A stretch of DNA of 64,000 nt, from NCBI GenBank assembly GCA_964017235.1, contig OZ024936.1, positions 52,937,028 to 53,001,027 of the forward strand, given 5' to 3'. Both the position numbers and the translations under genes were made by a program. The notes beneath the pieces are model-generated. The model was not told the origin of the DNA and made no database searches. It saw only the letters and a list, made by a program, of their open reading frames with translations. Origin of the DNA: Sabellastarte sp. h YS-2021 (lineage: Eukaryota; Annelida; Polychaeta; Sabellida; Sabellidae). Below, piece after piece: positions 48,101-60,308 of the stretch; the first letter of the stretch is position 1, and each line of letters opens with the position of its first letter.

Positions 48101-51100
48101 AATAAGTCATTCACCTACTTTTGAGTGATCTACCACATAGTGAAGTTGCAGAACTGTAGCTCTTTAGATGGCAGAGTAATAGCCACTAATATAAGTAAAT
48201 GTCTTGTATCTCTAAAAGTAGTACAGATAGGCAATTTCTTCTAAAGACGTGCTTCCCTACTTTGAGTTGATCTGCATAATGAAGTGGTAGAACTGTAGCT
48301 CTTTGGATGGCAAAGTAATAGCTACTAAAATGAGTAAATGCCTTTTGTCTTTAAAAGTATTGCAATCAAACATTAAACTTGTCACTTCTACATGTGCCTC
48401 CATCTCACAAGAAAATTTATATTCCACTATCTTTAGTACATCTAATTTATACGGCGGGAGATAAATGCATGCGTCAGAATGCTTGTTATGAAATATTTCT
48501 CAAAATTTAATTGCATTTATAGCTGGCTTGCGTTAAAGTCACTGTCAGTTTTTATGTTTTGTGACAGATTTTGGTATTTGGGGAATCAGTGCAAAAGTGT
48601 TACACATTGGGTGGTGTGGAACAATAGTTCAATATCAGTCAATACGCAAAGCCTAATTAGGGTTTGATATTGAAATTGTATATCACTCCCTACATGAAAT
48701 TTCTAGTTGGATAGAATTACCATGAGATTCATCAACAGGATAGAGTTCCACTTAATACTGTAGAAGAAACTTTACTCCCTTCAAACTTGTGTGGTGTTGT
48801 GTATAGTTTTGTCAGGTGAATTTTAGTTTTGAAAACTATATTTATCAAGGTTTTTGTGAAATTTATTTATTTTTTTTTTTTTTTCATTTACTGTGTGTAT
48901 GAAAAGTAAATGGCTTAACTTAGTATGACTCATAGCTTGAAATTAAACTATAAATTGACGAGAGTATTTCAAATTATATTTTGTTAGTCCTATAAATTAG
49001 ACCTCAGTCTTTATAGTTAAGTGTGAACTATCATCTTCAATTGTATTTCTTTTGAAATAATCTTCGGTGTCTTTGGATATAATTTTGTTTGTCTATTCTT
49101 TGTACAAAATATACATAATTCTTCCCTGACTGTAACTCTTTCTTTCAGTCATTGTGGGATGGTAAATGGGAGTCAAGCTGAACTAGTTGAACACTGGTAC
49201 AACAGGAATAAGGCATATAAAATTACATTTTTGTTTCACCTGCTTGATGTAAATTCTCCAAAAAAAAAACTGGGATTTTATGCGTTAAAAACACTCTTCT
49301 ATAAAATCTGAATGAAGACTTCATATATGGCTAAAGAGAATATGTAAAGTTTGGTAAATAATTAAAAGACGCTTTAGTATTGAAAAGTGACAAAATGCAG
49401 CCACTACCATTCCTTCAACACCATACAAACTGAGGTTTGTTTGTTTATTATGTTGGCCCTAACTAGTCTTGAATCTGAGCCAAGGCATATTTCTAATTAT
49501 TCATTAAGTAGGATATAAAAATTGTGTAGGTCCGGTGGACGCTAATGCAAAGCCGTTCGAATTCTGGGACACGCGTTTTATTCACCCCAGTCAAACATGA
49601 ACGTTTCCTGTAAAAGATATTGCAGTAAAAGTATCCAAATGCACAAAAAAACATTGGATAAAAGTAGTGTTGTGGTTGAATGTGAATTTTAGAACTTGTT
49701 TCTGAATGTGGAAATTCAGCGAAAAACCGAGTATGTTTGATTTATAAAACACGAAGTCATAAGTTTTCAAATGTGTACATGAGCATTAACTCTCATATAA
49801 ATAAGAACCATGATGGAGTTTTTGAAGACTTTCGATGACAATATGTGTGATACATTAATAGAATATTGTAAAAACTGTGAAATATTTGTTGTAGTTTAAT
49901 ATTTTGGTAAACTTTAGTTAAAATAATGAAATATGTGACGAAAACGGTTTTGGTTAGAAGAAAACGAAATGTAACCAGATCAATGTCTTTTGGTCAGCAA
50001 ATAGGTTTCTGTTTTAATGTCTTCAACACTAGATAAAAGCATCCAATTTCTGCAAATTTGTGGTTTGTTTCCAGTGTTTTAACTATTTCCTTCCATTATA
50101 TCTGTGGAGAAGCAAGATTGAGATTTTATAAAGTGTTATAAATTATAAAGTTACTTAGCCGAACAAGGCAGTTCTGCTCAACAAAATCGCTACTATAAAA
50201 GTCCACGAATTCACAAAAATATGAGATAAAAGGCTATTAAAAGTGTATAATTTCTTCAGATTGAGGGGTTGTGTCTACTATTTAAGATTTTTTAAAATTG
50301 TATGCGAAGTGGCAGTTGTAAAATTTCACCACGGCATCAAGGATGCAGAAAGTATGGACCCGATTGCCAACTCCTTTCAGCTTGGTAGGATGTGAAAGCA
50401 ATGCTCCATGTTAGTTCATCATTATATATCACCAAATAGCTCTTATATGTCAGTTCGTTCTGACCATTCAGTTGTAGGCACCTTTTCTGGTACTTTCAGG
50501 TTGAACAGTAAATATAGGTTCCTGTGCAATAAAATTCTCAGTGTGACTGATAAATATGTGTTTGTATTTACAAATTAATTTTAAATCCGTATTTTCTAAC
50601 CCTCTTTTTATTCTTTTCTTCCCTTGTTTGGTCTTGCAGTGGTGAAGGTTCACAGTACTCGGGTAACAGCGATGAGAGAAACTTCCTGGTGATGGCGCGA
50701 GCAATAGCTGTCCACCCCGATTCCACTAAGGTCATGTACTTTGCCTAAACGATGGTCATCTTATTCTAAAAACTCTTTAAACAAAAATGTGCTGACTGCT
50801 AGGCGTAAATAATAGACAAAAGAAACACAAAGCTTGTTGGGACTGTCATAGTGGGGCGGTTTTACTCTCCCACCTTATTCAGCTGGACTGTTGGTTTCTT
50901 TTATGGACAGGATAAGCACTCTTTGTATTTTCATACATTTGAAAATATATATATAACTGTTAACCTCATTAGTGCCATTTATGATGGACAGATGGATGAG
51001 TGATATATATGTGCAAGACTGGACTATTATTAATACATACATATGCATTGTGTAGATATATATATGTGTGTGCTTCTGTGAGAGCCTTTATAACACATAC

Positions 51101-60308: not shown

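Follow-up and report, generated by a model that had tools for sequence, protein, structure and literature searches.

Organization of the Argonaute Locus

The window, i.e., the whole stretch of 64,000 nucleotides analyzed here, is part of a 1.786-Gb assembly (contig 14, 52,937,028–53,001,027), which our genome-wide searches covered, and carries on its + strand an AGO-clade Argonaute gene with 17 exons between positions 6 and 39545. The exons were located by tblastn using human AGO2 as the query, and the GT/AG junctions were picked by script. Exons 1–5 lie at 6–126, 1599–1780, 2662–2798, 3577–3711, and 7929–8016; exons 6–10 at 16778–16861, 17740–17803, 23126–23245, 28718–28840, and 30481–30614; exons 11–15 at 31114–31298, 32160–32319, 33146–33361, 33694–33763, and 34373–34507; and exons 16–17 at 36644–36745 and 39346–39545. 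Joined at these sites, they give a single open frame. The numbering, kept from the initial annotation, counts from the window edge only: exon 1 begins at position 6, five bases past the window start (acceptor TTTAG/GGAG), and the gene starts upstream, with at least one further exon that ends ~440 bp outside the window (L009:9592; donor CAG/GTAAGT) and matches human AGO2 from residue 6 onward. At the junction of 1599–1780 with 2662–2798, the product has a Thr where human AGO2 has an Arg ahead of the conserved YTPVGR.

The spliced product was scanned against Pfam in its tail B version (789 residues, the first of which was read from intron sequence), and ArgoN, L1, PAZ, L2, Mid, and Piwi all scored above the cut-off. 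The catalytic D-E-D-H can be read in this product, with residue assignments that we take from human AGO2. The C-terminal 111 residues match AGO1–4 chains at E values of 1.8e-52 or lower with either tail, and Piwi-like protein 1 at 6e-12 to 1e-11, which places the predicted product nearer to AGO1–4 than to PIWI proteins. Exon 17 (39346–39545) is the last shared exon: it terminates in ...CACGACAG/gttagt at 39545 (donor CAG/gttagt) and ends in the AG of a split Ser codon.

Two Homologous Last Exons

Two exons downstream, both on the + strand and 109 nt long, can complete this frame: exon A at 50640–50748 (acceptor ...ttgcag) and exon B at 60200–60308 (acceptor ...tttcag). Each completes the split codon AG/T as Ser, and both end in MYFA-TAA. 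The initial annotation had given these coordinates, the length, the shared Ser phase, and the MYFA-stop exactly, and its hand count of 23 matching residues out of 36 agrees with our alignment of A with B, in which 66 of 108 nucleotides (61%) are identical. Compared inside the window, the two tails match at an E value of 2.5e-12, well beyond a chance resemblance. Human AGO2 matches twice with its last 36 residues, at 50638–50745 and 60198–60305 (tblastn), with identities of 17/36 for A and 18/36 for B; when the same upstream sequence is joined to either tail and scored against the AGO2 chain 4ola_A, tail A reaches 194.1 bits and tail B 194.7 bits. Arranged by human position, the differences between A and B amount to 3 of 14 residues at 824–837, 10 of 17 at 838–854, and none of five at 855–859; they do cluster after the Ser-rich loop, as had been proposed.

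The similarity between A and B stops at the exon edges. Ungapped identity of the adjoining 100 nt is 34% before the exons and 22% after them, and blastn of 1-kb flanks on each side returned short pieces only, with E values of 0.16 or worse. Both acceptors had been described as good, a wording that suits A, which ranks at the 99.5th percentile of 3,649 AG sites on the + strand under a hand-set score, better than the weaker B (91.3rd percentile). Among the 16 other in-window acceptors of the gene, 12 score below A and three below B. The intron from exon 17 spans 11,094 bases to A and 20,654 bases to B. Because each exon has its own stop, no mRNA can translate both, and B can be used only when A is skipped. 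By pattern match only, the first poly(A)-signal-like hexamer after A is ATTAAA at 51473–51478, 725 nt past the stop, with the first AATAAA at 52829; after B, AATAAA occurs at 60776–60781, 468 nt past the stop (all on the + strand).

The duplication is confined to this one exon and this one locus. Genome-wide, the B tail matches B and A alone (A at an E value of 5.6e-7), and exon 13 matches a single place, so we assign both tails to a single AGO-clade gene. Exon 17 matches itself and three places (L002–L004) at 40–44% identity; by their motifs, these distant loci look PIWI-like. With each of the 17 other exons used as a query at an E value of 0.01 against the window and the other stretches retrieved from the assembly, and with rows from the window itself (L001, L005, and L006) left out, no second AGO copy was found for any of them. 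Exons 14–17 also touch the three distant loci, and the last exon has exactly two copies. Neither other Argonaute exons nor a third copy of the tail were recognized between A and B or in the 40 kb downstream of the window, where several of the four longest frames per piece resemble retrotransposon proteins; the best weak tblastn row beyond A is a proline-rich stretch at 51172–51249 (E value of 0.08). Thus, A and B are homologous last exons in the same phase and at the same locus. Pattern searches for relatives of the tails in prokaryote genome contigs gave 40 matched stretches and those for relatives of exon 17 in viral contigs gave 13, none of which was confirmed.

Repeats and Other Features around the Exons

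Exon A is flanked by two arrays of a 133-bp satellite on the + strand, one upstream at 44877–47509 and the other downstream, in the same orientation, at 52737–54727; their best aligned piece is 94% identical. Unequal exchange between the arrays could delete or multiply A, so its presence may vary between individuals. A second satellite, with units of 169/339 bp, occupies 51570–52744, between A and B and ~100 bp past the ATTAAA hexamer that follows A, and the presumed 3′ UTR of A contains about seven near-perfect copies of the 9-bp unit GGCTCCGCC at 51183–51244.

Inverted repeats form 17 pairs in 39546–64000, a raw count with no shuffled control. The longest is a 53-nt local hairpin at 55451–55679, between A and B, and one 40-nt pair spans both exons (50282–50321 with 62206–62245) at 73% complementarity. 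On such a raw count, we do not propose an intron docking structure formed by inverted repeats. Rfam, at gathering scores, gave no matches in the window.

Elsewhere, overlapping frames at 12812–15677, inside an Argonaute intron, are reverse transcriptase/RNase H-like and tyrosine-recombinase-like, with similar frames downstream (L010); by its motifs, the region presumably resembles a DIRS-type retrotransposon. On the + strand, a frame of 216 residues at 63352–63999, with Cys/His-rich and Ser-rich parts, is still open at the window end.

Selection on the Two Exons

Both copies are under protein-level constraint, as judged from tests that all rest on 36 codons. Differences between A and B number 7, 12, and 23 at codon positions 1, 2, and 3, respectively. 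The Nei–Gojobori comparison gives pN = 0.28 (dN = 0.35) and pS = 0.77, the latter saturated and beyond the correctable range; bootstrap values of pN/pS run from 0.19 to 0.66, and a ratio of 1 is reached or exceeded in 0.08% of replicates. In a neutral, stop-free simulation run to the same nucleotide identity, 11.9 residues were kept on average and 19 at most, and none of 10,000 runs reached 23 of 36.

Neutral drift along one branch, starting from A, retained at least 23 residues and no stop in 37% of simulations at 0.2 substitutions per site, in 7% at 0.3, and in 0.08% at 0.5. A long decay of one exon is therefore excluded, while one branch may have evolved neutrally for as much as about 0.2–0.3 substitutions per site, and a recent loss is compatible with these rates. 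Taken together, pN against pS, the 0/10,000 neutral runs, and the decay simulation support the proposal that the exon duplication was kept under selection.

The differences also fall mostly where A and B differ from human AGO2. With A as the base, B keeps 15 of the 17 AGO2-identical positions and 8 of the 19 others (one-sided Fisher P = 0.005); similarly, with B as the base, A keeps 15/18 and 8/18, respectively (P = 0.018).

The Serine Cluster and the C-Terminal End

In human AGO2, residues ~820–837 form a eukaryotic insertion that includes S824, S828, S831, and S834 (PMC9154749, PMC13041839). Once a target is bound, CK1alpha phosphorylates this insertion from S828 and thereby promotes release of the target; the insertion is then reset by PP6/ANKRD52 (PMC9154749, PMC13041839). 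At the very end of the chain, the C-terminal carboxyl group helps to recognize the guide 5′ phosphate (PMC9262622).

All four switch serines are present in both A and B. The codon for S828 is TCA in A and AGC in B, and that for S831 is TCG in A and AGT in B; no single base change connects TCN and AGY, so it seems to be the identity of Ser at S828 and S831 that was conserved. Between these serines, position 830 is Tyr in A, Gln in B, and Thr in human AGO2, and at position 833 A has Asn where B gains a fifth Ser, followed by Ser-Glu-Glu. The extra Ser of B presumably resembles a CK2 site. Further along, in a segment (838–854) that is presumably helical, the charge reverses at position 844 (Arg in A, Asp in B), and Ala in A is replaced by Arg in B at 847. 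Both tails share their length and their MYFA end, perhaps because the carboxyl end helps to hold the guide 5′ phosphate.

The initial annotation placed the differing residues next to the active site. This wording is imprecise, as exon 17 is where the catalytic His falls, according to its position in human AGO2. The part of the C-terminus that A and B actually exchange comprises the serine cluster, the following segment, and the carboxyl end, the roles of the first and last being those described for human AGO2 (PMC9154749, PMC9262622).

Proposed Explanation and Alternatives

We propose that an old tandem duplication, its age judged from synonymous saturation alone, doubled the last coding exon of the only AGO-clade gene in this genome, and that both copies, which share frame and phase, are confined to one locus, and are constrained at the protein level, were kept. 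Their sequences make it probable that A and B are both used as alternative last exons, and the initial annotation's idea of one gene yielding two silencing proteins is the likeliest reading. One Argonaute would arise if exon 17 were spliced to A and the transcript polyadenylated downstream of it; a second, of equal length, would arise if A were skipped and exon 17 joined to B over 20.7 kb. As A lies closer and its acceptor is stronger, A would be the default and B a regulated form made when A is skipped. The choice would also exchange the whole 3′ UTR. Whether the protein difference between the tails matters is a more doubtful proposition, one that we hold tentatively and at somewhat less than even confidence. 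If it does, the swap would tune the CK1alpha/PP6 release cycle, or an adjacent surface, rather than remove the switch, because both tails retain the end and all four serines yet differ at 830, 833, 844, 847, and across 838–854. Two versions of RISC would then be expected, differing in target dwell time or partner contacts, with separately controlled expression. The differences at 838–854 might, on the other hand, be neutral within a tolerant segment.

The last point leads to a reading that accepts the use of both exons but gives the protein difference almost no weight, the choice of 3′ UTR being what counts. This reading overlaps the splicing part of our explanation and opposes the tuning part only. 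It draws on flanks that are wholly different (34% and 22%), on the poly(A)-like hexamers that each exon has of its own, and on the known switch serines being identical in both tails; however, mere alternative polyadenylation needs no second coding exon, and 10 of 17 residues differ at 838–854, including the charge reversal at 844 and the Arg gained at 847, so we consider it rather unlikely. Other readings deny one of the exons a function. B stands alone 9.5 kb downstream of A with the weaker acceptor, as might be expected if a second, tandem Argonaute gene had lost every exon except B, leaving it unused or recently dead, and a death of B within about 0.2–0.3 substitutions per site would be compatible with the simulation. 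Yet no other Argonaute exon was recognized from A to B or in the 40 kb past the window, B matches human AGO2 no less well than A, and a long-neutral B would not retain 23 of 36 residues, the open frame, the acceptor, and the phase, all of which makes a remnant highly unlikely.

The converse, a dying A beside a functional last exon B, is less credible still and would surprise us greatly: although A sits between two direct satellite arrays, a setting prone to exon loss, it has the stronger acceptor, intact serines, the MYFA end, and an equal match to AGO2, and transcription reaches it first of the two last exons. Lastly, end-to-end placement of two haplotype copies of one locus is an error that occurs in repeat-rich assemblies, but an artefact of this kind can practically be dismissed here, as a nucleotide identity of 61% with no similarity past the exon edges is far beyond allelic divergence and no other exon is doubled. 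The explanation we favor remains the use of both A and B as alternative last exons of one gene.

Comparison with Known Systems

Tandem duplicated exons that substitute for each other are documented in human genes, where 77 of 236 such events swap C-terminal regions, and tropomyosin has homologous 3′ exons in human, fly, and nematode (TPM1/Tm1/lev-11) (PMC9741552). Exons A and B are likewise homologous, in tandem, and mutually exclusive in translation, and the events in that account are usually ancient (PMC9741552); the use of A and B, unlike theirs, is a prediction from sequence. The main text of that account does not name Argonaute (term count of 0). Two C-termini from one AGO gene are known for human AGO1, whose read-through form AGO1x carries 34 added residues said to disturb the 5′-end binding site; AGO1x is an extension, in contrast to the equal length and shared end of A and B (PMC9262622). 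In the shrimp Marsupenaeus japonicus, a single gene yields the isoforms Ago1A, Ago1B, and Ago1C, which differ in the PIWI domain, as the two forms here would, but through a 27-residue insertion instead of a swap of homologous last exons (PMC3510085). The serine cluster of human AGO2 and C. elegans ALG-1 (S824, S828, S831, and S834) is found in both tails; the available parts of those accounts mention no alternative segment from one gene, whereas in the present gene the cluster lies on an apparently swappable exon (PMC9154749, PMC13041839). Thus, duplicated C-terminal exons are a recognized kind of arrangement, and among the open-licence matches listed (titles and abstract beginnings), none described homologous alternative last exons in an Argonaute.

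Implications for Argonaute Diversity

As far as is known, animals generally vary Argonaute function by adding genes. In the present locus, one gene seems instead to vary its last 36 residues, among them the serine cluster, which affects the time RISC spends on a target. In a survey of Lophotrochozoa, an siRNA-type AGO was not found in molluscs (PMC11114477), and a study in snails describes a single Ago2 as a conserved mollusc feature (PMC11353429); another study counts one AGO in Mytilus galloprovincialis and Lottia gigantea and two each in Aplysia californica and Crassostrea gigas (PMC4793324). The two oyster proteins might be two genes or two tails of one. The initial annotation implied a bivalve, with which a single AGO gene would be compatible. 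Molluscs are reported to be without an insect-type siRNA Argonaute, and in an animal of this group one gene might supply both a fast-cycling RISC and a long-dwelling one, the latter with, e.g., an antiviral or germline role. In its full form, the sole AGO-clade gene would make two RISC species through a one-exon cassette that exchanges the CK1alpha/PP6 release switch, the segment behind it, and the 3′ UTR, and would have retained both exons for a very long time; we offer this as speculation, and regard it as unlikely. If both tails are made, they would constitute a natural matched pair of Argonautes, identical outside the cassette, through which the roles of the serine cluster and the following segment could be addressed directly, as could the question whether, in animals with a small set of Argonautes, one gene can do the work of two.
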